DNA of 64,000 nt from Cloeon dipterum (lineage: Eukaryota > Arthropoda > Insecta > Ephemeroptera > Baetidae): NCBI RefSeq assembly GCF_949628265.1, contig NC_088786.1, positions 38,833,681-38,897,680 on the forward strand, read 5' to 3'. The notes beneath the pieces are model-generated. The model worked only from the letters and a program-made list of their open reading frames with translations. It was not told the DNA's origin and made no database searches. The translations under genes were made by a program, and so were the position numbers. This document shows, piece after piece, positions 19,868 to 58,301 of the stretch (the stretch's first letter is position 1; the number at the start of each line of letters is the position of its first letter).

Positions 19868-21036
19868 TATTTTTCCCTATAATTTATTCAGATAGCGTAA
19901 AGTAGTGATTTTCTGTTAATCATCTTTCCGTGCGAATACAGAAAAATAAGCGTATGAGTAAAATTGGATGGAAAAAACTGTGATGGAAGCACATCAGCTG
20001 ATGGATGCGTTGCTCGTGAAAAATCAAGGCCACGCGACAAAGTGTGTCACTGCGAGTGTTCCGGTGGCCGTTGCTGCGCTTTAGAAAAATTCAATGATCA
20101 CCGCACACGAGCGGCAGTCCTGCTTGAAAAGGCAATGCCCGCCGCATTTCACTCGATTTTATTTTATTTCGCGACTCCGGTGAGTTCAAATTTTCAAATT
20201 TCTAAATTAAATGAAAAGGGAATTTACAGATTGGATTTGTTTCAGCTGGCTTTACAGAGAAGAACAGGGGTTTAGGACGGCGGAATCAGGTAACGTGACC
20301 TGAGGAAGGTCGGTGACAGGCAGGGGTGAGAAATCGTCGCCAAGTATCCCCAATTGGACTCGAAATTAATGAAAAAGCATTAAAAACCGGCCTGGGAACG
20401 GATCTCAAGGTCGGGGTACCCTGAAAAAGGTCGTTAGGGTACAGCGGGTAATAGCCCCGTCCGAGACCTGTACGATAAGGGGTCGTGGTTGATGATCCGA
20501 GGAACGGCCGAAATCTAATAAAAATAAAACCAAACTTTTTCGTAAAAACAGCCGAAAAAAATTCGTAAAAATTACAAAAATGGTCCAAATTTAAAAAACT
20601 TAACACGTGTGGACGCGCCGCTTAAATGGACATCGATTGGTTCTTAAATTAGCGCCATCCGGCCAATAAGACCCCGCCTGGGCCCCGATAAAAAAGTTTG
20701 AAATGTCATAAATCGCATTTTTGCGACTTTAAAAATTAATACCTCGGCTCCTATGGGTCGTAGAGTAAAAAATTAAAGTTCATTAGACTCGCCATAAAAT
20801 TGTGCGTCATTTTTACTCTTTTGCTACCCCAAAATCTGCTATATATAAAGATTTTGCTTTGGTCCAGGGTCCCCTGCCCAATTATTTTGCAAAATTTGAA
20901 ACGAATTAATAATATGGTTGAATTTCAACTTCATTCTTATTTGGTTTATTTAAATTTAATACACTAGATGATTTTTCAAATTTTTCTTCTTTCTTCAGTC
21001 ACCAATATCTTCCGGGGAGCCCTGAAATTCTTTTCA
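19868..21036 (-). repeat. Dispersed ~1.1-kb repeat incl. CTL exon-8 relic (copy 1)
   Basis: In reverse complement this matches 28611-29785 and 56907-58030. Landmarks are the CTL last exon (GGAGCCCTGA... at 21025-21036 complement, reading GSPE-like), the ACCCATAGGAGCCGAGGT tract, GGGGCCCAGGCGGGG, the GGTCACGTTACCTGA end, and the GTGTGTCACTGCGAGTGTTC block. It has no credible ORF. It follows CTL genes elsewhere, so it is their 3' flank carried along by duplication. Confidence 0.7.
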
Positions 21037-21662
21037 CTTGCTGGAATGCCAGCCACCGATCTAAATTCGGGTGGCTTAGATCTCAGATATCTACTTTTGA
21101 CAGATAAAATAATATAATTATGTTGATGTATCATTTTCCCGCTGTAGCATTAAAGCGCCCTAATTATGTCCCGACTGCAGACGCTTAAAAAGAATTACAA
21201 AAAATGAGGTAATTCTTAAAGTATCTGGAGTTCGCGCCAGTGAAAACGCCCTGAACGCTGATTGGTTGCCTCCAAAAGCATGATAGAGGTAAGATGGGGA
21301 GCTATTAGCATAACTCGAATTTTTAAGTTTTCAAGTAGAAATCTAAATTTGATTTAGATAATTATTAAACTGAAAGAGCAAGTTTTTAAAAAAGTAAACA
21401 AACAAATATTGAAAAACGCGAAAAACATATAATGGCCAAAATTTTCCTTCTCCTTGTCGCACACACCAATGCGATCGTGGGCGGAGTAACGGAGGTGTTG
21501 GTTGCTTTTAAACACGGTAAACACATGACTTCTCAGGAAGATGCAAAGATTGCAAGCAGCAAAGGTTCCGCGTGAAAAAATTTGCTTGTTTAACCGAGCC
21601 GACCCAATCAGGACCTAACTGGGCATTGAAAATTATTGCTCAAAACCTTTTTGGGTGGAGAC
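21037..21662 (+). promoter_or_regulatory. Conserved 5' flank of the ZAD zinc-finger genes
   Basis: This ~600 bp is conserved upstream of all three zinc-finger copies (reverse complement at about 52917-53540 and 56284-56906), including CCAGATACTTTAAGAATTAC-like and ACATGACTTC tracts and the GGTGGAGACATGGAGAG start context. It probably holds the promoter (inference); no TATA box is evident. Confidence 0.35.
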
Positions 21663-23091
21663 ATGGAGAGACTTTCCAGGACCAGAAGCTTGAGGAGTCG
21701 AGAGATGCAGCCGCCAAGAGTCGGAGAAGCAAAACCTGCCATTCAAAAGCCGCTGTGCAGACTGTGCGAGTGTCCGACGTCGGACGGCCACGTCCTCGCG
21801 TCGCAGGTGGACAGGTTCAAGCTGAGGAAATGGGCCATGAAGGTCATGAACCTGACGGAAGAAGACGAAAACCTGCCGGACGTGGTCGAAGAAGACGCTT
21901 TGATCTGCTATTTTTGCATCTGGCAGGCAGAGTGAGTTATTATTCAAAGTGATAAAATAGCAGTTATTTAATTTTGACGCGTGCTTTAGGTTTGGGGATG
22001 AGTCCGGAGACGAAGCTGTCGCTTGGTGGCCGAAAAACCTTGTTTTGGAAGAAAACGCAAAGGTGCTTCGCGAGAATTATACAGGTACTTGGGAAACTTT
22101 AATAAAAATAATATAAAGTAATTTCCATTGTTAAAAATTTACAGTTGGAGATGTAGAACAGTGTTGGGTGCAGTTGGAAGAGATTGATCTCGCGAAATAC
22201 GAAAAGAAAATCCCTAAGAAGAGGAAATGCGTCATTGGAGTTTGTCTTTACTGCGGCGAGAGATTTTTAGAACTGACGAAGCACATCAAGAAGGAGCATA
22301 AAGAAGCCATCAAATGCGGAATTCGGGGCTGCACGACATTCTTTCACACCAAGGAGGCAAAAGAGCATCACATGCTACAGGATTTTCACGAGAAACGTGA
22401 CAAACCATGCGAAAGCAAGAATTTTCGCTGCAGTTTTTGTGAAATCGGAAAATTGTATTCCTCACTAAATTCTTGGAGGCATCACATGAATCGCAAGCAT
22501 CCGGAACTGGTTGCGTGCACGCATTACAGCTGCCAAGAGTATTTCAAATCAAAGCCTGAAATGATGATCCACATCAACTCGTTTCACAAACAAGACATAA
22601 AACAAAATCTTCTGCAGTGCGAGCATTGCGAGTATTTTACCACTGAGAAGAAGCATTTGAGTGTACACCAACAGTCGAAGCACTTGCCAAAGATGTTCAA
22701 ATGTGACAGTTGCGAAGCCAGATTTGGCTCGAAATACCTGGCTAGTTTTCACTACAAAAATTGCCATACATTCGACAAGTGCAAATCTTGTGGCCAGGAC
22801 GTTTCTCACAGGTACCAGGCAGCCCACAGAAGGCCATCGGTTTGCTCCAGATGCAAACTCAGTTTCAAGTGCACTGGTTTGTATCAACTGCATATGAAGA
22901 GCTGCAAACAAACCCTTAGTTGCAAGGAATGTGGAAAATCGTTCAGCTTAAATTGGAACTTGAATCGCCACGTGAGACAATTTCACAGCAAAACCTCGAA
23001 TTTACTCTGCCACCATTGCGACTATTCTACGCTTTATAAATTTGACATGGAGTGGCACATTCAACAAAGACATTTTCCAAAGACGATTTAG
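21663..23091 (+). CDS. ZF-C: ZAD-C2H2 zinc-finger protein, C-terminally truncated
   Basis: Exons 21663-21931, 21990-22084 and 22145-23091 (269 + 95 + 947 nt, 436 codons). Exon 1 encodes the ZAD: CRLC near residue 32 and CYFC near residue 83, the paired cysteines that bind zinc and drive dimerisation in arthropod ZAD proteins. Exon 3 carries about ten C2H2-type fingers (CLYCGERFLELTKHIKKEH, CDSCEARFGSKYLASFHYK, CKECGKSFSLNWNLNRH). The two paralogues at 51.2 and 54.6 kb continue for ~95 more codons, but here TAG (23089-23091) replaces the lysine codon after PKTI, and the downstream remnant is also frameshifted. Probably a nuclear DNA-binding protein, or a young pseudogene. Confidence 0.8.
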
Positions 23092-23390
23092 TGTGGGGAA
23101 TGCAAGTTATTGTTTGGCTCTCAATCAATTCTCAAGATTCACAAGTACAGATCGCACGAATATGTTCGTTGCTCAAATGTGCCCAGCAGATGAGCCGTCA
23201 AGCCATGTCTAAACATCGGACCATCAAGACTTGCCGCCGGTGCAAGCGCAAATTCAAATGCTCAGGACTTCTTAAAAAGCATGTGTGTCTATGCAGGGTA
23301 AAAATTTCTAATGTGACAAGTGCCCGAAATTTTAAAGCAAAAATCATCATTTGTACAATCATATTGTCAAGAAGCACATTGACGTATGAA
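23092..23390 (+). pseudogene. Decayed 3' end of ZF-C
   Basis: Sequence homologous to the last three zinc fingers of ZF-A and ZF-B continues in several frames: CGECKLLFGSQSILKIHKY, a frameshift after EYVRC, then HRTIKTCRRCKRKFKCSGL in another frame, then a third, ending at the equivalent of KKHIDV near 23387. This is decay after truncation. Confidence 0.75.
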
Positions 23391-23459
23391 TTGTACCAAA
23401 TTAAAATGAATAGTGGCATTCTGAAAAATTGTTGCCTTTTAAATTAACAAACCCTTCCA

Positions 23460-24175
23460 GTATATGTTGCTTTATTTTGTGTAAAAAATATTTGTGAAAT
23501 ATAACTATTTTTAATCTAAAAAATTATTCAATTCAAAGAAAAATAATTTTTTTAATTTTAGCTTACTCAAAATTTCTTTTACTTGAAATTCAGTCTATAA
23601 AAGTGGGAGCGATCAGCAACAAATCAGCGCCTGGGTCACGTGACCACTGGAGAGAGAGCGCGAAATTTATTCGCTAATTCCTCAATGGAAATTAAACCTT
23701 GCGGGATCTTCAACAAATCTTCTCTTTATACGAAAGTCACTTGGCGACTAAGTCGAACAGAATACAAGGACCTTATTTAAACAGAATTGATATTCGACTT
23801 TCGGATTAACAATTTTAGAGAATTGACTTGAAGAACAATTTAAATAAGAAAAGAATTTACCCGATTGAGCCAGGTCCTTCACAATGAAACGCTCGGAACT
23901 CTTAAGATGTGACTTGTTGGCTCGTGTGTCCGGTGAAAACTAATTTAAATTCGAAATCTCTCTGTTGCATTAACGAATTTCTAACAAATATCGTCATTGT
24001 GTGCTCAAGCTGTACATTTTATTTCATTTTAATTGTTTGTAACTTTCCCGCCGTTTCATACTAGACGGGAGACTGAAGATTGGAAATACTGCAACCGAAT
24101 CGAAAAAACTAATTCTTAAATCGATTTAAAACCAAATAAATATTCATGTTTTGCAAAATTCAACTAAAAAGTCGG
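23460..24175. repeat. 3' flank of ZF-C and a ~300-bp repeat shared with 41.4 kb
   Basis: 23460-23660 matches (inverted) the 3' flank of ZF-A at about 50930-51120, including a GGTCACGTGACC palindrome at 23634-23645. 23687-23985 is repeated in direct orientation at about 41386-41685 (TTGCGGGAT, CACTTGGCGACT, AACGCTCGGAACTCTTAAGATG). No gene. Confidence 0.6.
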
Positions 24176-33658: not shown

Positions 33659-36600
33659 CTAAAACCAAAGATTTTCCGACGACAGGTAAAAACTGAATCC
33701 TTCTCCAGACGAGTTCTTAAAATTCATGTCGATTATGACATTGGTCAAAGTCGGAATGAAGGCAATTGCATTTTTGAACAGTGAAGTAATTGTTATTGTA
33801 AATTTGGACCTGGAGCGAGGGTTAACAATTTCATACACGTTGTGATGAAACGATGACAAACTGCACAAAATCTGCTTTCTGGCGATCAGATCTGCCACTT
33901 TCTCCAAATCACCAACTTCAAATCGTGACCCTTCCAGTGAAATCTTTTCCAGGCCTGGCGCCGAGAGAATGGTTGAGATATTGACTGGTTGATCGCTAAA
34001 ATATAAAAGGAAATCATAATCCAGAATTTAATTAGAACATTTGCAAACTAACCCCTTTGTAATCCAGACCAGCTCTCTCAGGTTGGAAAATTTCTGGATG
34101 GGCTCTTCACCATCTTCCACCTTCACGCCATCAAAGCGGAGTTTTTCTAGCTTTGGGCATTTCTCGAATATGGTTCCGAGTTGGATGGAGCAGAACGATT
34201 CGGAGAGCTCAAGGCTAGTCAGGCTGGCACCATACGCGTCTAGAAGTCTCTCAAGCGCGTAGAGGGACGAAAAATGCCTGACATGCAGAAACTCGATGCA
34301 GGGAAATTTCGTCAAAGCATCTAGTAGAGCTGGCTTTGGGTAGGCTTCTCCAGCCAGATTGACCTACAAACATTTAAATTAAGCAATAAGTGGATAAATA
34401 ATACACTAAAGATAATAAATAAAAGGCAAAATTGAATTTAATTTACCTTCAGGTGGGTCACGTTTGGAAAACGCAAATGAATATCTTCGTCCTGAGGTCT
34501 AGTGCTGAGGTGTTGCAGAGGTGACGACCCGAAAGGAATGTTAATATCCCCAGACATCTCTACTGTGAAGCGATGACCATCCACCCGACTTTGGACGATT
34601 TCCAACTTTGGAAGGGTCTCCAAGCAATATTTGGAGAATCTCCTGAGGAAGGCTCCTGAGGTGAATTGAGCGAAAAGAAAGACTTTCAGGTTTCCAAAGC
34701 TTTCTTTGAACATCGCTCGATCTGCAAACGCGTAGTCCAAATTGTGCTCTGTCAGGTAAACGTCCAATTGCTCCAAAGCGGGAAGCTTCTTGCAAAGCCT
34801 GAGCAGGTCGGAGAAATCTACTGCGCAGCCCTTGATGCACAGCTTCTTCAAGTGACGCAACTTGCCGATTTCTTCGAGAGCATCTTGCTGAAGGCAACCG
34901 TAGAAACTGATGCATTCTCTCTCCGTCATAAGTCTTCTCTCGTTCAGTACCAGGCTCTCCAAATCCGGAGCGTTGTTGACGATCTTGCGAACAACCTGAC
35001 AACGAGAGAGCAAAAAATCAATATTAATATTATATGTTCTGGTAGAGAAAGAGAGGTAGAGAGAGAGGTAAGCTAGCATCGAGTGTGCACGCTAAGAATC
35101 TTGTCTCTGCTGAATTCCTGCCTCCGGGCTTTGTTTCAGGTTTAGTGGGCCGTCGAGCCCACTGGCGAAGCTCTTTATCGCCCCCGCCGACCCTGTCGCG
35201 CGGAGGCGACCCTTACTACTGCCCGGTTAATTGGAAAAAAGCATTTTAATTTTTTCCCATTGACGAAATCAATTGCCGGTGGAATTCCCTAGGGCCTGTT
35301 GTAGAGAACCGAAGGAGATTCCTTGACTGCCATTCTCAGAGTGCCATTTGGATTCCGTTTTCTAAACGATGGGCCAGCCTCGAAAAGACCAACGGTGCCC
35401 TTCCTCGAAGGGTAATAACCCGCGGATGTCCAGTTCCTATGCTACGGCGGCTGCACGTCCTCCAGTGACCTTCAGGCCGGACCAGCCGCCGCCTCCAATA
35501 GCGCAAGTCCTGCAGGCCAATCCGGCGGCAGGAGATAATCTCGGCCACTTTCTGACCGTGTTCCAGCAGGTAGCTGCCCATTACCAGAGGCTGCTGGACG
35601 CGGCAGAGGAACGCGAGAGGCGCCTCGAGGAGCGTTTTGCGCGCACGGAGACAAAGCTGGAGGAGTCGCTCGCTCGTATTCAGGCGCTCGAGCGACGGTT
35701 AGCAAGCAGCGGAGGTCATCAGCATCACCGCCGCTACCAGGAGCCCTCACGCGGCGAAAATACACCACTGACAAACGATTACCTGGACAGATTAGAAGAG
35801 ATCACGAACAAAGGACCGATCGAGCGCCCAGGCAGCAAGATTGTGTTTTATGAGAAGGAGGAGGATCTCTTCTCTTCGAAGGAAGGAACGATTGTCCATT
35901 CGGTCCCAGCCGATCTGCGATGCGACTTAGGACTGGCCGGCCAGTGCGCCAAGCGCTTTGGAAAGCCCCCCGCCCCTACAACTGGCGCGCAGGTTGGGGA
36001 TGTGCTGGCTCAAGATGCCGGTGCTCTTGGCACCCTTCTGAGCCTTGTCACCAAGGATAAGGCCCCCTATAGGTTCCAGAAGAGGCCGGAGGCCTTCCTC
36101 GATACGATCAAGGTGGCCTTCGATTGCCTATTCGCTTACCTCGAGGAACATAAAGTTCGAAAAATTGCTATGCCTCGGCTTTGTAGCGGATTGGATGGTT
36201 TGGCATGGCCCTGGGTGAAGGACGAGCTGCTGAAGCGCAGTAAAAAACTACGCCACATCCCTAAGGGGTCCGCCCTGGAAGTGCATGTGTATCACCTGCC
36301 CCCGCGTGCTGAACGCAGGCCGACGAGCGGCGCTCCTGCGCTTGAAATTGGTGGTCCACTGAGAGCGATAAACGAGAATAAGGACGAGGTTGATGACGAT
36401 GACGATGATGATGATTTTGAGGATGTCGTTGGTGATGTTGGAAATGATGCTACCCTATCTCAGACAAAACGACAGGATGACGCCGGCGTGGTGACTAGAC
36501 GGAAGAATAAGAGTAGAAATTTTTAATGAGCCCCGAATCAAATGATGTACAATTATTATTGTGGAATTGTGAAGGCCTTAAAAGTATCTTTCACCTGATT

Positions 36601-39600
36601 GACGAAAATTTTTTCATAAAATTTGATATAGTTATTCTGACAGAAACCTTTTTGACAAACAGTTTCTCGATCTCGGGGTTTTACTGTAAAAATATTTTTG
36701 GCATCAAAAACAGTGTTGGTCGCCCAATGCGGGGGGTGTCTGTTTATTACTCATCTCGTATGGGAAGCCTGATCAGTTTTGCGGCTCAAGAAAATTCATT
36801 GATTCTGAACTTTTCTCACATTTCTCTTGTTGCAGCCTATTTTCACCCTAAAATGACATGCGATGAAATAATGGATGAACTAAATTCTGCCGAGGAAAAT
36901 GTAGTGCACAAAGAGTTGGCCATTTACGCAGGCGATTTCAACTGCCGCATTGATAAAATTACACAAAAAGGAGAGATGATTTTGGAATTTGCTAGCTTCA
37001 ATGATTTATATTTAGTAAACTCCTATCCACTGCAAAGCACGTATGTAACTGAAAATGGATGTAGCGTAATTGATCTCATTTTTTGTGGAGCAAGAGTTCG
37101 ATTGAAAAATTTTGCCATTCAAGACTCATTTGTGCGTAAGCATAGATTTGTATGTGCTACTTTTCGATTGCCTAACATTGATTCAAATCCTAAAAACGCT
37201 GAAAATCTGCATAGTAAAGTTAACTTAAATATACTTAGAGAAGGCATTCTTGATAGCAGCAGTAAGTTAAAATCACATCTGACCAATGATAATGTTGAAG
37301 ATTTTTATAGAGACATTTTGCAGATGGTAAACGATGCAAATTGTTTAATCAGGGCCAGTCAGAGAATAAGCCAGCCGTGGTTTGATGCAGAGTGCTTTAA
37401 TTTTAGACAAGATTTACTATTTTTGAGTGCATTTATTGATTCTTTATTTTTCTGGATTGGAGCTCAGGAGGAAAGGGAAGAAGTTTATGAAACTTTTGCT
37501 ATGGCCAAAAAATATTACAGAAAATTATGCAGATCTAAAAAAGCAGCTTATCAGGAAAAATTGGACGAGCGAATTTTGGGGGAAGCAGAGTCGCTCTGCT
37601 ATAAGTTTCTGCAGTTGAATGACAGGGGCTCGAATTATGTGTCCAATGACATCCCAATGGACACTTGGATACATTTTCTGAGCGGCGTGTTCAATTATGG
37701 TCACTTAGCGCAGGATGATAGTTTGAACCTAAAATCTCTGATGTCCAACTTTCCAAGGAGCGATAACATTAAACTATTTTTTGACTGATGAAATTGAGCT
37801 GGCATTAAAGGGTATGAAAAATGGTAAAGCGCCCGGTCCGGACGGTGTGCGGAATGGGACGATCAAATTCTTGTGGGGGGAATTGGCACCCGAGATAACC
37901 GATTTCCTGAATACGTGTTTGAGGTTGGGCGGTTTCCCGTCTGCCTGGAAGACGTCTAATCTTAGGCTGCTCTTTAAGGGAAAGGGGGATGTCTCGGATG
38001 TCGATTCCTATCGGGGCATTAATTTGTGTTGTTCTCTCTATGGCCTGCTGGACAGGGTGATGACAAATCGCCTGTACTCATACCTTATCGAGTCCATCCC
38101 AAAGAATCAATACGGGTTTGTCAAAGGGAAATCTACGATTCAAGCCGTACAAGTATTATTAAACGAGATCTCCCAAGTAGTCTATAGAAATGGCAAACCA
38201 CTTTATGCACTATTTTTGGACGTTCGCAAGGCTTTCGACTCCATTGACCGAATTTTCGTTTTTGAGCAGTTGATAAACTCCGGTAAACTATGCTTCGAAG
38301 AGCTGAATCTATTAGCCGCAATGCTGGATGTGAATTATTTGACTGTTCTGGACGGAATTTCGAAGTCTGGGCCGATTGTCCAGTCGAATGGAGTACGGCA
38401 AGGCGGCAGTATTTCCCCTTTCCTCTTCATTTACTCGCTCTGTGACATCAACCACCTCTTAAATTTTGCTCCAAATGTTAAACTGTTGATGTATGCCGAT
38501 GATATTGTTTTACTCTCTGACTGCCTGGAGGACCTGAGTGTTTTTGTGCACAGTTTGACAAATTACCTCGGCAAACGTAACTTAAAATTAAATCTGGCCA
38601 AATGTAAAATTTTAAAATTCAGGAACAAGGGCAAAGGCAGACTAAAGAAGAGTGACACTTTTTCTATAAATGATGAAAAAATTGATTTTGTTACAGAGTT
38701 TACATATTTGGGTGTCACATTTCAATCCTCAGGTCTCTCTTTCTCTAAACATGTGGATAGGAAAGTAAGAGCCGCTATTTTCGCTACATCAAAATTAAAA
38801 TCTCTCTCCAAATCATCTGTCAGTACAGCATTAAAGCTTTTTAATTTAGCCATAGCACCAATCGCTAGTTACGGCATACAGGCAATCTGGCCATATCTTA
38901 CCTTAACAGACTTAAATAAGTTAGAATCTGCAAAATCTCGTTTTCTCAAAAAAGCCTTAGCACTGTCAAAATTTATGAAATCTAGACTAGCATATGAGCT
39001 TGCTGACACTGACTTTTTTGTTGATGATCTTCTTAAGAAATTCTCACTCTCAGAAACTGCTGCTTACAATAACTTTATTATTAATAGACTTTTCAAGCTC
39101 TCCCAGATCGATGGGGATTTCTATGGCACCCCTGCAATGGGCGATCCGGGCTGGAAAAATGCCTGTTTTCTAAATAGACATGTTTTCACCAGGCACGCCT
39201 GTCACGATTATCATTATGTTTACTGTACTAACAAGAAATATCATTGTAAGGCCGGTTTCGATTGCAAATGTGTATACTGTGATGAATATGTGAAGTTCTA
39301 CCACTTTTTGGAATGCAAGAAGATCCCATTGACTCTCATGCGTGCTAGTGTACTGTAATATTTATGCATGTCTATATCTGTTGTACACCATTGGTGTTTC
39401 TTTAAATAAATATAATAAAAATATTATATGTTCTTCCGTGTTTAAGTAACGTCTAACGCTAAACACAGAGGGAGGCACCGTTTTTTAATTTAATGGAATT
39501 TTAATCGAAAATTTTATCCAAAAGGAGCAAGATGTCGGTACACATCCAAATTAAAAAAATAAAATTATATTAGATTTTTTGCTATTTTCTTACGTTTAAA

Positions 39601-42194: not shown

Positions 42195-42370
42195 TTTTTG
42201 CGCTGGCCACCGCACGCTGGCCACCGGAACACTCGCAGTGACACACTTTTTCACGTGGCCTTGATTTTTCACGAGCAATGCATCAGCAGTTTTTTCTATC
42301 CCATAATATCCAAGTTTTGCTCAAGTGATTATTTTTCTGTATTCTCGAAAAGATGATTATTTTACGCTAT
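42195..42370 (+). repeat. Fragment of the dispersed CTL-flank repeat
   Basis: TGGCCACCGGAACACTCGCA, then GTGACACACTTTTTCACGTG and GATTTTTCACGAGCAATGCA match the right-hand ~170 bp of the repeat at 28.6-29.8 and 57-58 kb. Confidence 0.6.
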
Positions 42371-42459
42371 CTGGATAAAGAGATTAAATAAATTGAAAGG
42401 GTGAAATGGCCAAATAAAGGGACTGGGAAAATCCCACAATCGACTGGCAGAGTTCGCCT

Positions 42460-42715
42460 CTCGCGGCGGCGGCGGTCGTCGTCCATGGATAAAGCGCAGC
42501 GCCCTTTTCTGCACTCTCTCCATTTTCGATGTGTTTGCCTGCGTGGTCGGATGCCACGCAGGAAGTCCATAGGTCAAGATGGGCTTCACAAGGGACAGAT
42601 ATGACACCCTCTTTACCCTCTGGGTGCATCCACGCAGGTTGCGGGCCGCAAAGCCAAGCACTCGGGCGGCCTTTGCGCGCGCGACGTCTGTTTGCACGTC
42701 CCAACGTTTTTTAAT
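42460..42715 (-). pseudogene. Reverse-transcriptase C-terminal fragment of another retroelement
   Basis: The minus frame reads KKRWDVQTDVARAKAARVLG, RNLRGCTQRVKRVSYLSLVK, PILTYGLPAWHPTTQ, KMERVQKRALRFIHG. This is the thumb/C-terminal region typical of jockey/CR1-like non-LTR ORF2 proteins (RVK..AY..LVRP.LEYG.PAW.P). It is clearly different from the element at 35-39 kb. No catalytic domain, ORF1 or ends are present, so it is a dead fragment. Confidence 0.7.
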
Positions 42716-43359
42716 TCTATAAGATAACAAAATAACTGTTACATTAATTCTTAAGAAATTCCCAAAGTTAAAAAATGGCTTTAAGAACATTCCAACTGCC
42801 TTAAGAAATTTTTAAAAAAATACAAAGCTCCAAATTTGAGATCAGGAAAAATCTCATCCTTGCTGGTTGCAATGGACATTTTTTATTGTTGTCGAAGTTA
42901 TAGATTTTTGGAACGTTTGTTGCGCTGCTTGGAAAATGTAATGTAAATGATTAAAATAGCTGATAATCTCCATTAGTTGCAACAAAAAATTTGAAAAAAT
43001 AATTAAATTCTCAGATAATTAAATGTATGTTATTGCAAAATGTTCGCATTTAAAAAAATAATTTAAATAATCCTTCTGGCCGCTGCATAAAAATAAAAAC
43101 TAAAATCAAAGCATTCCTGAATTTCTAAAATAAAATAAAAATTATTCGATCAATGGAAAATTACCTTTTTTAGATGAGAATTAATATAAAATTCACACGG
43201 TAAAATATTTTAGGTCGAGCGGGAGAGGGAACGCAGCCGATCCAAACTTTCGGGTTTTACTGCGTTCTGGTTCCAATTTTTAAAGGAAGTGACGCAATTA
43301 AAAAGCGATCTAGTCACAACATATAATACGAGCTGGACGCTTTTCAGATCAAAAACGCG
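42716..43359. other. Intergenic / upstream region of CTL-E
   Basis: The last ~160 bp (GAGGGAACGCAGCCGAT, ACTGCGTTCTGGTTCCA, AAAAAGCG) are conserved upstream of CTL-F at ~58170-58300, so probably contain the promoter. The rest shows nothing recognisable. Confidence 0.45.
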
Positions 43360-54360: not shown

Positions 54361-54572
54361 GAGGGCAAGTTTTCAAATAAAATTCTTTTCACACGCTCTC
54401 GAATTTTTCAAAACACGTTCGTAATTCAAGATCCATTGAATGTGGATGAAAAACAATTAAATTTCAAAAAAATTTTATACAGAAAATAAAGCAAAATACA
54501 TTGGAAGGTTTTTTTAATTTAAAAGAAAACAATTTTTGAGAATGCCACTATTCATTTTAATTTGGTACAGTT

Positions 54573-56283
54573 TTATACCTCAATGTGCTTCTTGACAATA
54601 TGGTTAAGCAAACTATTCTTTTTCATATAAAATTTCGGGCACTTGTCACAATAGAAAAAATTACCTTCCAGACAGACATGCTTTTCAAGAAGTCCTGAGC
54701 AATTTAACTTGCGCTTGCACCGGCGGCAAGTCTTGATGGTCCGATGTTTAAACATGGCTTGACGGCACATCTCCTGGGCACATTCTGCGCAATGAACGTA
54801 CTCGTGCTTGTTGTACTTGTGATTCTTGAGAATTGATTGAGAGCTAAACAATTGGTTGCAGTCTCCACACTTAATGGTCTTTGGCAAATGTTTCCTTTGA
54901 ATGTGCCGCCTCATGTCAAATTTATTAAGCGTTGAATAGTCGCAATGGTCGCAGAGTAAATTCGAGGTGTGAAATTGTCTCACGTGGCGATTCAACTCTC
55001 TATTCAAGGTGAACGATTCTCCACACTCTTCGCACCTACGGCAGGTTCCTCGGCAGCTCTTCTTATGCAGTTGATACAAACCAAAGCACTTGAATCTGAG
55101 TTTGCATTTGGAGCAAACCGATGACCTTCTGTGCGCTGCCTTATGTCTGCGAGCAACGTCCTGGCCACAAGATTTGCACTTGACGAATGTATGACTTTTT
55201 TCGTAGTGAAAACTAGCCAGGTATTTCGAGCCAAATCTGGCTTCGCAACTGTCACATTTGAACATCTTTGGCAAGTGCTTCGACTGTTGATGTACACTCA
55301 AATTGGACTTCTCAGTGGTAAAATACTCGCAATGCTCGCACTGCAAAAATTTTTGCTTTATGCCTTTTTTGTGCAACGAGTTGATGTGGAGATTCATTTC
55401 AGACTTGGATTTCATGTACTCTTTGCAGCCGTAATGCGTGCACGCCACCAATTCTGGATGCTTGCGAATCATGTGCTTCCTCCACGAATTGAGTAAGGAA
55501 TAGAATTTGCCATTTTTACAAAATTTGCACCAAAAATTCTTTCTTTCGCATGGTTTGCCACGTTTCTCGTGAAAATCCTGCAGCATGTGATGCTCTTTTT
55601 CCTCCTTGGTGTGAAAGAATGTCGTGCAGCCCCGAATTCCGCATTTGATGGCTTCTTTGTGCATCAGTTTCACGTGCTTCATCAGACGGTAGTATCTCTT
55701 TCCACAGTAAAGACACGCTCCACTCCTCTTTTTAGGAATTTCCTTTTCGTACTCGGCCAGATCAACCACTTCCAACTGCACCCAACACTGTTCAACTTCT
55801 CCAACTGTAAATTTTTAACAATGGAAATTGCTGTTTATTATTTTTATTAAAATTTCATTAGTACCTGAATAATTCTCGCGAAGCACCTTTGCGTTTTCTT
55901 CCAAATCAAGGTTTTTCGGCCACCAAGCCACAGCTTCGTCTCCAGACTCGTCCCCGAACCTAAAGCACGCGTCAAAATCCAAATAAAATATTTAGGGGTT
56001 ATGAAAAAACTCACTCTGCCTGCCAGATGCAAAAGTAGCAGATCAAAGCGTCTTCTTCGACCACGTCCGGCAGGTTTTCGTCTTCTTCCGTCAGGTTCAT
56101 GACCTTCATGGCCCATTTCCTCAGCTTGAACCTGTCCACCTGCGACGCGAGGACGTGGCCGTCCGACGTCGGACACTCGCACAGTCTGCACAGCGCCTTT
56201 TGAATTGCAGGTTTTGCTTCTCCGACTCTTGGTGGCTGCATCTCTCGGCTCCTTAAGCTTCTGGATCTGGAATGTCTCTCCAT
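54573..56283 (-). CDS. ZF-B: ZAD-C2H2 zinc-finger protein, intact, 531 aa
   Basis: Exons 56015-56283, 55865-55959 and 54573-55804 (269 + 95 + 1232 nt); exons 1 and 2 have identical lengths in all three paralogues. The ZAD (CRLC, CYFC) is at the N-terminus; ~13 fingers follow (CLYCGKRYYRLMKHVKLMH, CKSCGQDVARRHKAAHRR, CEECGESFTLNRELNRHVRQ, CDKCPKFYMKKNSLLNHIVK), ending KKHIEV. Compared with ZF-A it lacks five residues net, and the finger sequences differ most at positions that usually contact DNA (inference), so target specificity may differ. Exon 1 is nearly identical to ZF-A, pointing to recent duplication or gene conversion. Confidence 0.85.
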
Positions 56284-56912
56284 GTCTCCACCCAAAATGG
56301 TTTAAACCGTGAAATTTCTATGCCCAGTTCCTGATTGGGTCGGCTCGGCAAAAACAAGCGAATTTTGTCACGCGGAACTTGCTGCTTGCAATCTTTGCAT
56401 CTTCCTGTGAAGTCATGTGTTTACCGTGTTTAAAAGCAACAAACTCCGTTACTCCGCCCACGTTCGCAGTGGTGTGTGCGACAAGGAGAGGAAAATTTTG
56501 GCTATTATATGTTTTTTCACGTTTTTTAATATTTGTTTGTTTACCTTTTTAATCATTTGCTCTTTCAATTTAATAATCATCTAAATCAAATTTAGATTTC
56601 TGCTTAAAAACTTAAAAATTCGAGTTATACCAATAGCTCCTTATCTTACCTTTCTCATGCTTTTGGAGGAAACCAATCAGCGTTCAGAGCGTTTTGACTG
56701 GCGCGAACTCCAGATACTTCATGAATTGTCTCAATTTTTGTAATTCTTTTTACGCGTCGGCAGTCGGGACATAATTAGTGCGCTTTAATGCCACAGCGGG
56801 AAAATGATACATCAACATCATTATAATATTTTATCTGTCAAAAGCAGATATCTGAGATCTAAGCCACCTGAATTTAGATCGGTGACTGGCATTCCAGCAA
56901 GTGAAAAAAATT
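56284..56912 (-). repeat. 5' flank of ZF-B, duplicated with the gene
   Basis: Matches the flanks of ZF-A and ZF-C; joins a CTL last-exon relic at 56913. Confidence 0.65.
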
Positions 56913-58030
56913 TCAGGGCTCTCCGGAAGCTATTGGTGACTGAAGAAAGAAGAAAAATTTGAAAAATCATTTAGTGTATTAAATTTAAATAAACCCAATA
57001 AGAATGAAGTTGAAATTCAACCATATTATTAACTCGTTTCAAATTTTGCAAAATAATTGGGCAGGGGACCCTGGACCAAAGCAAAAAGCAGATTTTGGGG
57101 TAGCAAAAGAGTAAAAATGACGCACAATTTTATGGCGAGTCTGATGAACTTTAATTTTTTACTCTACGACCCATAGGAGCCGAGTTATTAATTTTTAAAG
57201 TCGCAAAAATGCGATTTATGACATTTCAAACTTTTTTATCGGGGCCCAGGCGGGGTCTTACTGGCCGGATGGCGCCAATTTAAGAACCAATCGATGTACA
57301 TTTAGGAGGTGCGTCCACCCGTGTTCAGGTTTTTAAATTCGGACCATTTTTGGAATTTTTACGAATTTTTTTCGGCTGTTTTTACGAAAAAGTTTGGTTT
57401 TATTTTTATTAGATTTCGGCCGTTCCTCGGATCATCAACCACGACCCCTTATCGTACAGGTCTCGGATGGGGCTTTTATCCGCGGTATCCTAACGACCTT
57501 TTTCAGGGTAATCTGACCTGAGATCCGCTCCCAGGCCTGTTTTTAATGCTTTTTCATTAACTTCGAGTTCAATTGGGGATACTTGGCGACGATTTCTCAC
57601 CCCTGCCTGTCACCGACCTTCCTCAGGTCACGCGACCTGATTCCGCCGTCCTAAACCACTGTTCTTCTCCGCTAAGCCAGCCGAAGCAAATCTATTCTGT
57701 AAATTCTCCTTTCGTTTAATTTAGAAATTTGAAAAATTGAACTCACCGGAGTCGCGAAATAAAATAAAATCGAGTGAAATGCGGCGGGCATTGTTCTTTC
57801 CAAGCAGGAGTGCTGCTCGTGTGCGGCGAATGCGGCGATCATTGAATTTTTCTAAAGCGCGTGCAGCAGTGGCCACCGGAACACTCGCAGTGACACACTT
57901 TTTCGCGTGGCCTTGATTTTTCACGACCAACGCATCCATCAGCTGATGTGCTGCCAACACAGTTTTTTCCATCCAATTTTGCTCATAAACACTTATTTTT
58001 CTGTATTCGCGCGGAAAGATGATTAACAGA
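56913..58030 (+). repeat. CTL exon-8 relic plus dispersed repeat (copy 3)
   Basis: AAATTTCAG then GGCTCTCCGGAAGCTATTGG (56924 on) is an isolated CTL last exon (GSPEAIGD, stop) without the rest of the gene. The following ~1.1 kb is the same 3' flank as after CTL-C (28648-29785). In reverse complement this corresponds to 19868-21036 next to ZF-C. Confidence 0.75.
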
Positions 58031-58301
58031 AAACTAAACATTTTTCTATCTCCATTTTCCGTCGCAAAGTGAACTCGTCGTCCTAAAGATAACACGGTGT
58101 AAAATAAATCGATTAAAGAAAATCTACCTTTTCTGAAATTATTATAAAATTATTGACGTAAAAGTCTTTTCGGTCGAGGGAGAGGGAATTAACGCAGCCG
58201 ATTCAATTTTCCGGCTTTACTGCGTTATGGTTCCATTTTTAAAGGAAGCAACGTAATTAAAAAGCGTCTATTCAGTGGACGCTTTTCAGAGCGAAAACGC
58301 G

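Follow-up and report, generated by a model that had tools for sequence, protein, structure and literature searches.

The product of the first open reading frame (ORF1) is the least understood protein of LINE retrotransposons, and a domain of catalytic type and known chemistry within it would provide a concrete handle on its role. A locus in the mayfly Cloeon dipterum raises the question of whether such a protein contains a macro domain resembling that of the human ADP-ribosyl hydrolase TARG1 (OARD1/C6orf130) and, if so, what the element would gain from it. The locus lies in a stretch of 64,000 nucleotides (hereafter the window; C1:38833681-38897680) of a 190-Mb, 10-contig assembly, which also delimits our own-genome searches.

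Architecture and integrity of the element

An open frame of 385 aa was found exactly where the initial annotation had placed ORF1 (35369..36526), within an element with the following features:

35026..35040, no strand: 5' target-site duplication (TSD) AATATTATATGTTCT, an exact 15-mer found at two places in the window
35041..39419, plus strand: non-LTR retrotransposon between the TSDs (4379 bp), antisense to a minus-strand host gene (called by inspection) and located between two coding-like stretches
35041..35368, plus strand: 5' UTR, from the TSD to the ORF1 start
35369..36526, plus strand: ORF1 (385 aa), an open frame with a genomic copy (L012) and two database copies (P0002 and P0003)
35531..35704, plus strand: coiled-coil-like heptad region (ORF1 residues 55-112), recognised by eye, with all matches to coiled-coil proteins sub-threshold
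35828..36301, plus strand: TARG1-type macro domain (ORF1 residues 154-311), from sequence, profile and structure-model comparisons
36053..36055, plus strand: K229, aligned equivalent of the TARG1 catalytic K84
36194..36196, plus strand: D276, aligned equivalent of the TARG1 catalytic D125
36302..36523, plus strand: ORF1 C-terminal tail, an acidic run followed by a basic end (sequence, charge counts)
36524..36528, plus strand: TAATG, overlap of the ORF1 stop and the ORF2 start (sequence)
36526..37788, plus strand: ORF2 part 1, APE-type endonuclease (Pfam Exo_endo_phos_2, E 1.1e-6)
37781..39358, plus strand: ORF2 part 2, reverse transcriptase (RT) with YADD and a C-terminal Cys/His motif (Pfam RVT_1, E 6e-34)
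39359..39419, plus strand: 3' UTR with a TAA-rich tail, ending in TAAATAAATATAATAAA (sequence)
39420..39434, no strand: 3' TSD (15 bp), an exact repeat of 35026..35040

In its remaining parts the element is as ordinary as had been claimed, with an APE endonuclease and RT in ORF2 (whose C-terminal Cys/His columns are invariant across 12 aligned relatives), the TAATG overlap, a 15-bp TSD and a simple 3' tail. As the TSD brackets the 5' UTR, ORF1, ORF2 and the tail (of 2000 flank pairs drawn at random, 3 had a 15-mer in common), both ORFs moved as one unit; among seven relatives examined for a TSD, one (L046) has a probable 14-bp duplication. The ORF2 of the window copy contains one frame change near 37,780, which places its second part in another frame than the first. 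Since a second genomic copy on C3 (L012; ORF1 cut on its 5' side, 99% identical over residues 164-385) retains ORF2 as a single open frame of 946 aa, this break is particular to the window copy. The minus-strand coding-like stretches on both sides, which have only weak LRR matches in Pfam, suggest by inspection an insertion in a host-gene intron.

The base composition shifts where ORF1 gives way to ORF2 (from about 51-61% GC to 33-47%), a step in keeping with, and no proof of, an exchange of ORF1. Elsewhere in the window we observed a large inverted duplication (19909-23516 and 54445-58033, 89% identical) with C2H2 zinc-finger ORFs, and a minus-strand fragment (42362-42790) which resembles, by weak matches, the C-terminal portion of the reverse transcriptase of a different LINE.

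A TARG1-type macro domain in ORF1

The initial annotation had read the segment behind the coiled coil as a TARG1/OARD1-like macro domain and had let this reading depend on a macro fold emerging from profile or structure searches. Such a fold was found, with PDB search, shuffle-tested alignment, hhalign and structure comparison in agreement. The six top matches of the segment in the PDB were five human TARG1/C6orf130 sequences and one Thermus DarG, and its alignment with a TARG1 fragment scored 20.4 bits (best of 20,000 shuffles 11.2). Comparison by hhalign over residues 150-318 returned Prob 96.9 (E 1.6e-10), as against Prob 0.2 for a LINE ORF2 alignment used as control. An AF2 model of the segment, built on a 28-row alignment that included 25 OARD1-family rows, reached pLDDT 79.7 and pTM 0.78, and TARG1 gave the best rows in both structure comparisons made with it; the single-sequence AF2 model (pLDDT 42) was unusable. 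Single-profile scores were lower: the NCBIfam DarG match (E 1.6e-4) reached 21 of the 250 bits required by the equivalog cut-off, and Pfam Macro scored 14.4 bits (E 0.037; 18.5 bits for the relative L042) against a gathering threshold of 22. Despite the latter score, homology to Macro is supported at the sequence level by the profile-profile comparison and by intermediate sequences. A three-row profile gave weaker PDB matches (TARG1 E 0.06, DarG E 0.045) and ranked a spectrin chain first, via the coiled-coil stretch.

K229 and D276 align with TARG1 K84 and D125, so that the lysine and aspartate of TARG1-type hydrolases are kept as had been stated, and 26 of the 64 columns conserved in the OARD1-family rows of the model alignment are retained in the segment. 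Near the ADP-ribose loop, OARD1-conserved residues are changed in the window copy (S35 to P, G41-A42 to D-L). The established LINE ORF1 types I-IV are the RRM/CCHC, L1-type, PHD and esterase ones. As no Pfam match to RRM, CCHC, PHD or esterase was obtained in the window ORF1, its sequence appears to fall outside these types and would by default be unclassified (type V).

The two database copies of ORF1 (P0002 and P0003, 96% and 95% identical) are both from Cloeon dipterum. A protein database search with the macro segment returned only two relatives at E 1e-3, both from Cloeon, while the best 120 of 3303 matches in the third protein search were mostly OARD1-named or Pfam Macro proteins, with no further retroelement discernible among them.

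Recurrence of macro-bearing ORF1s beside LINE ORF2s

Own-genome searches returned at least 55 matches with the window ORF1 and at least 52 with coelacanth OARD1 (repeat counts being lower bounds), which merged into at least 65 loci, host-like ones included. On the question, raised by the initial annotation, of whether the fusion recurs next to ORF2, 40 of the 65 macro loci in the Cloeon dipterum genome lie within 1.5 kb upstream of a same-strand LINE endonuclease (18 A-type, one of them via an endonuclease match starting at residue 88, and 22 B/D-type). An even spread of the places, which is not what they show, would yield about 0.02 pairs by chance. Viewed from the ORF2 side, a macro ORF1 lies upstream (for group A, within 1.5 kb and on the same strand) of 17 of the 36 group-A-lineage endonucleases (matches starting within the first 13 residues, picked from 64) and of 22 of the 34 B/D-type ones (starts within the first 30 residues, picked from 82). 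The latter cut left out 12 rows starting at 31-33 (28-30% identical), none of which pairs with a macro locus; as 11 of them span the same query range (31-382), they probably represent another LINE family. L026 was scored as unpaired though a weak endonuclease start lies behind its macro ORF. The Pfam Macro profile yielded seven matches in the genome, and since just one (C5:1216173) belongs to the ORF2-linked set, it misses this family when used alone.

Flanks were read at 30 loci (1.5 kb on each side) and in 12 longer stretches (lengths are those of stop-to-stop frames), and four groups were distinguished. Group A (window, L042, L043, L020 and L046) has ORF1s composed of a coiled coil and a macro domain, with ORF2 frames of 958 aa in L042, 964 aa in L043 and 954 aa in L046. 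Group B (L041, L044, L027, L029 and L039) has ORF1s of 578 aa (L041) and 618 aa (L044), followed by ORF2s (990 and 1020 aa) whose RT is 23-27% identical to those of group A and L045. Group C (L045, L050/L063 and L064) has macro domains nearer to OARD1 (34-39% to the coelacanth protein in L045 and L050), and group D (L055 and L056) has ORF1s of 473 and 543 aa, the endonucleases of the following ORF2s being 33% identical to that of L041. Identity between groups A, B and C is only about 21-32%.

We read the upstream stretches of six of the 19 unpaired A-lineage cases. One (L058, C5:444500-447600) has a 413-aa frame lacking a macro domain before an ORF2 of the group A lineage, from which it follows that the domain was gained or lost within one ORF2 lineage. 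The other five have neither a macro match nor a frame of 200 aa, save for L062, where a frame of 237 aa includes a further endonuclease start; the stretches of L057 and L062 run into satellite-like repeats.

With regard to genomic setting, 34 of 60 macro loci on C1-C5 lie within 2 Mb of a contig end (versus 10.7% of the sequence), and satellite-like arrays host several elements (L041, L045, L056, L057 and L062). The word AAAACTATCGATTC is common to the sequence after the L045 ORF2 tail and to that left of L056, as if insertion favoured one satellite position. LINE relatives were not found in viral_contigs; related ORF2s are also present on metagenome contigs, and a search of genome_contigs returned ten distant RT loci (nine metagenome-assembled records and one Peribacillus).

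Re-pairing of ORF1 and ORF2, and the source of the domain

The ORF2 of L045 belongs to the window lineage (RT 64% identical), while its macro-bearing ORF1 is 32% identical to the window ORF1 versus 45-49% to those of L050/L063 and L064, whose ORF2s are of the B/D lineage. The ORF2 of L064, whose ORF1 contains one internal stop, is a single frame of 934 aa and is 41% identical to L056, 31% to L041 and 24-27% to group A and L045; the broken ORF2 of L063 is nearest to L056 and L055. Like ORF1s thus stand before ORF2s of both lineages, and like ORF2s behind unlike ORF1s, which argues for ORF1/ORF2 exchange or for more than one capture, and against one simple capture followed by descent.

The RT tree (15 rows) places L045 with P0004 and P0006 (100/98) and this trio with the window and L042 (99/99; 72 under a simpler model). 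The macro tree pairs L045 with L050 (100/100) and unites groups A and B without them (89/89, 91 in another run; below the program's mark). An AU test on 25 macro rows, for which the program warns of long branches, rejected a clade of the window, L042, L045 and L050 (p 0.0005), and rejected neither a clade of all A and C rows (p 0.13) nor one of all element rows (p 0.48). With the 15 RT rows, a set that includes database rows of unknown ORF1 type, a clade of the four group A rows was rejected; when the rows were restricted to the seven whose ORF1 type is known, there was no rejection in either test (RT p 0.25, macro p 0.30). As the formal tree tests are mixed, the re-pairing claim rests on the direct pairings.

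We infer that the macro domain derives from a host gene. Among the host-like candidates of the Cloeon dipterum genome (L051 and L052, 53% and 42% identical to coelacanth OARD1) no parent was pinned down, the window domain being 28% identical to L051. L052 (C5:27785009) and C2:24889776 are OARD1-like frames of 309 aa (42% identical to the coelacanth protein) and 339 aa (39%), respectively, and are perhaps host paralogues. L053 and L054 (282 and 235 aa) are short stand-alone macro ORFs in which the catalytic Lys and Asp are present; no ORF2 was found beside them in the stretch read, and together with neighbouring macro ORFs they lie at C5:23.16-23.99 Mb and C3:35.1-36.0 Mb. These stand-alone ORFs may be host genes, domesticated ORF1s or non-autonomous elements.

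Conservation and selection on the macro domain

Of 44 stretches scanned, 43 provided a macro row, leaving 41 element-side rows after removal of L051 and L052; five of these are second fetches of places already counted, near-copies inflate the counts, and eight come from loci unpaired with an ORF2 (L016, L025, L026, L038, L040, L048, L053 and L054). Within this set all 39 rows readable at the catalytic Lys have it, and of the 38 readable at the catalytic Asp position, 35 carry Asp and 3 Glu; furthermore, G43 is kept in 40 of 40 rows and D37 in 37 of 40. The G123 position carries K in all five group B rows.

In the pairs where it was measurable (group B), constraint is concentrated on the macro domain: dN/dS was 0.11 in the macro domain versus 0.57 in the rest of ORF1 for L032-L029, 0.14 versus 0.48 for L032-L027 and 0.08 versus 0.49 for L029-L027. 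The three comparisons are not independent, as all draw on the same group B sequences. Thirteen pairs were considered, nine of which had a saturated or very low dS in one or both regions; a close pair with few changes (L032-L030; macro 0.51, rest 0.39) displayed no macro-specific constraint. Relative to one database copy, the window ORF1 differs at 2 of 158 macro residues versus 13 of 225 outside (p 0.03), and relative to the other at 3 of 141 versus 14 of 206 (p 0.07).

Proposed function and alternative readings

Sequence and model comparisons establish a macro fold with kept Lys/Asp, and the TSD its joint mobility with ORF2; the domain recurs before ORF2 in two LINE lineages, and where it was measurable constraint is concentrated on it. 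On these grounds we consider it reasonably probable that the ORF1 of this LINE is a coiled-coil RNP protein fused to a predicted TARG1-type ADP-ribosyl hydrolase, which would erase ADP-ribose at the target. The initial annotation is thus upheld in its TARG1/OARD1-like assignment; its suggestion that the domain strips ADP-ribose at nicks, or blunts a PARP-based defence, we still infer.

TARG1 is described as cleaving ADP-ribose esters on proteins as well as ADP-ribosylated nucleic-acid ends (PMC7050489), a PARP1/PARP2 complex is reported to form at LINE-1 integration breaks (PMC8535693), and mono-ADP-ribosylation of KAP1 by SIRT6 is reported to silence L1 (PMC4695847); a LINE-borne eraser fits any one of the three. 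In such a scheme ORF1p would reach the target site together with the LINE RNA. Host PARPs would be activated there by the nick that ORF2 makes, and the macro domain would then strip ADP-ribose, either from its ester links to proteins or from phosphorylated ends of DNA or RNA. The nick would thereby be freed for second-strand synthesis and repair or, alternatively, ADP-ribosylation-based silencing of the element would be undone. As loss of PARP1/2 lowers L1 retrotransposition in human cells (PMC8535693), removal of ADP-ribose could also hurt the element, and since PARPs help L1 in those cells, a late finishing step is a better candidate than a block of PARPs as such. The macro-less ORF1 of L058, preceding an ORF2 of the same lineage, indicates that LINEs of this kind can do without the domain, and the altered loop residues (S35 and G41-A42 in the window, G123 in group B) count, as far as sequence goes, against the hydrolase reading.

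Many macro domains only bind their ligand. The domain might accordingly be a reader: by binding ADP-ribose/PAR it would guide the ORF1p RNP to chromatin that is nicked and PARylated, with no need for catalysis, in line with the changed loop residues of the window copy and with the reported support of L1 insertion by PARP activity (PMC8535693); we regard this as unlikely, and favour an eraser because the catalytic Lys is kept (with Asp/Glu at the partner position) in every readable row. Something else must bind RNA in an ORF1 that has no RRM, CCHC, PHD or esterase match, and the macro fold could fill this vacancy as an RNA/ssDNA binder or chaperone for which ADP-ribose is irrelevant, as the ssDNA-binding face proposed for DarG (PMC7050489) would allow; the best-kept positions across groups are, however, the TARG1 catalytic and loop sites (K84, D/E125, D37 and G43), which renders this role rather improbable. 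That the ORF is a host macro gene or retrocopy beside a LINE, as the stand-alone macro ORFs of the genome (L051-L054) might suggest, is refuted by the TSD enclosing ORF1 and ORF2, the TAATG joining them and the ORF1-ORF2 pairing at 40 loci, and we give it hardly any credence. Equally negligible is a chance similarity, to which the sub-threshold Pfam score and the poor single-sequence model might point, since the PDB and NCBIfam DarG matches, shuffles, structure comparison and hhalign refute it and related ORF1s (e.g. L042 and L045) bridge to OARD1.

Returning to the predicted hydrolase, its presence in many LINE copies suggests interference with a host DNA-repair or silencing signal. A broader and tentative extension, which we think possible while leaning against it, is that LINEs use TARG1-type macro domains as a mobile counter-defence module, repeatedly captured or exchanged among LINE lineages and selected for catalysis. 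If true, this would be evidence that ADP-ribosylation, of nucleic-acid ends or of chromatin proteins, is a means by which insects hold retrotransposons in check. A domain that diverged families have retained, and that is found time and again beside ORF2, offers a clue to the obstacles that LINEs meet at their target sites; it also allows the part played by PARPs in retrotransposition, which is unsettled, to be tested by way of the parasite.

Comparison with known systems

Human TARG1 (an ALC1-like macrodomain hydrolase) is a stand-alone protein of about 150 aa, whereas the mayfly domain is fused within a LINE ORF1 and differs by an insertion before the last strand and by altered loop residues. 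The macrodomain of the bacterial antitoxin DarG is described as lacking the acidic dyad partner (PMC7050489), which the mayfly domain has in D276. The esterase and PHD ORF1s of CR1/L2 elements (PMC4120745) likewise place a catalytic or reader domain in ORF1 and document the shuffling of ORF1s between lineages, with folds other than macro. In its main text that survey, which covers 448 elements, uses no word that begins with "macro", and no report of a macro domain in a non-LTR element was found in the literature searched, which covered few subscription papers and does not demonstrate absence in print. Retroelements with a macro domain protein are known among the epsilon-like endogenous retroviruses of fish (Basta et al. 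2009, cited in PMC4977317); by description, these are LTR elements with the domain in an additional ORF, whereas in the mayfly it lies inside ORF1. Thus, macro ORFs in fish retroviruses (PMC4977317) and ORF1 domain shuffling (PMC4120745) were already known, and what appears new, as far as these searches reach, is a macro domain inside a LINE ORF1. The viral macrodomains that act against host ADP-ribosylation would follow the same logic of an eraser carried by the parasite, as a functional analogy drawn from RNA viruses.
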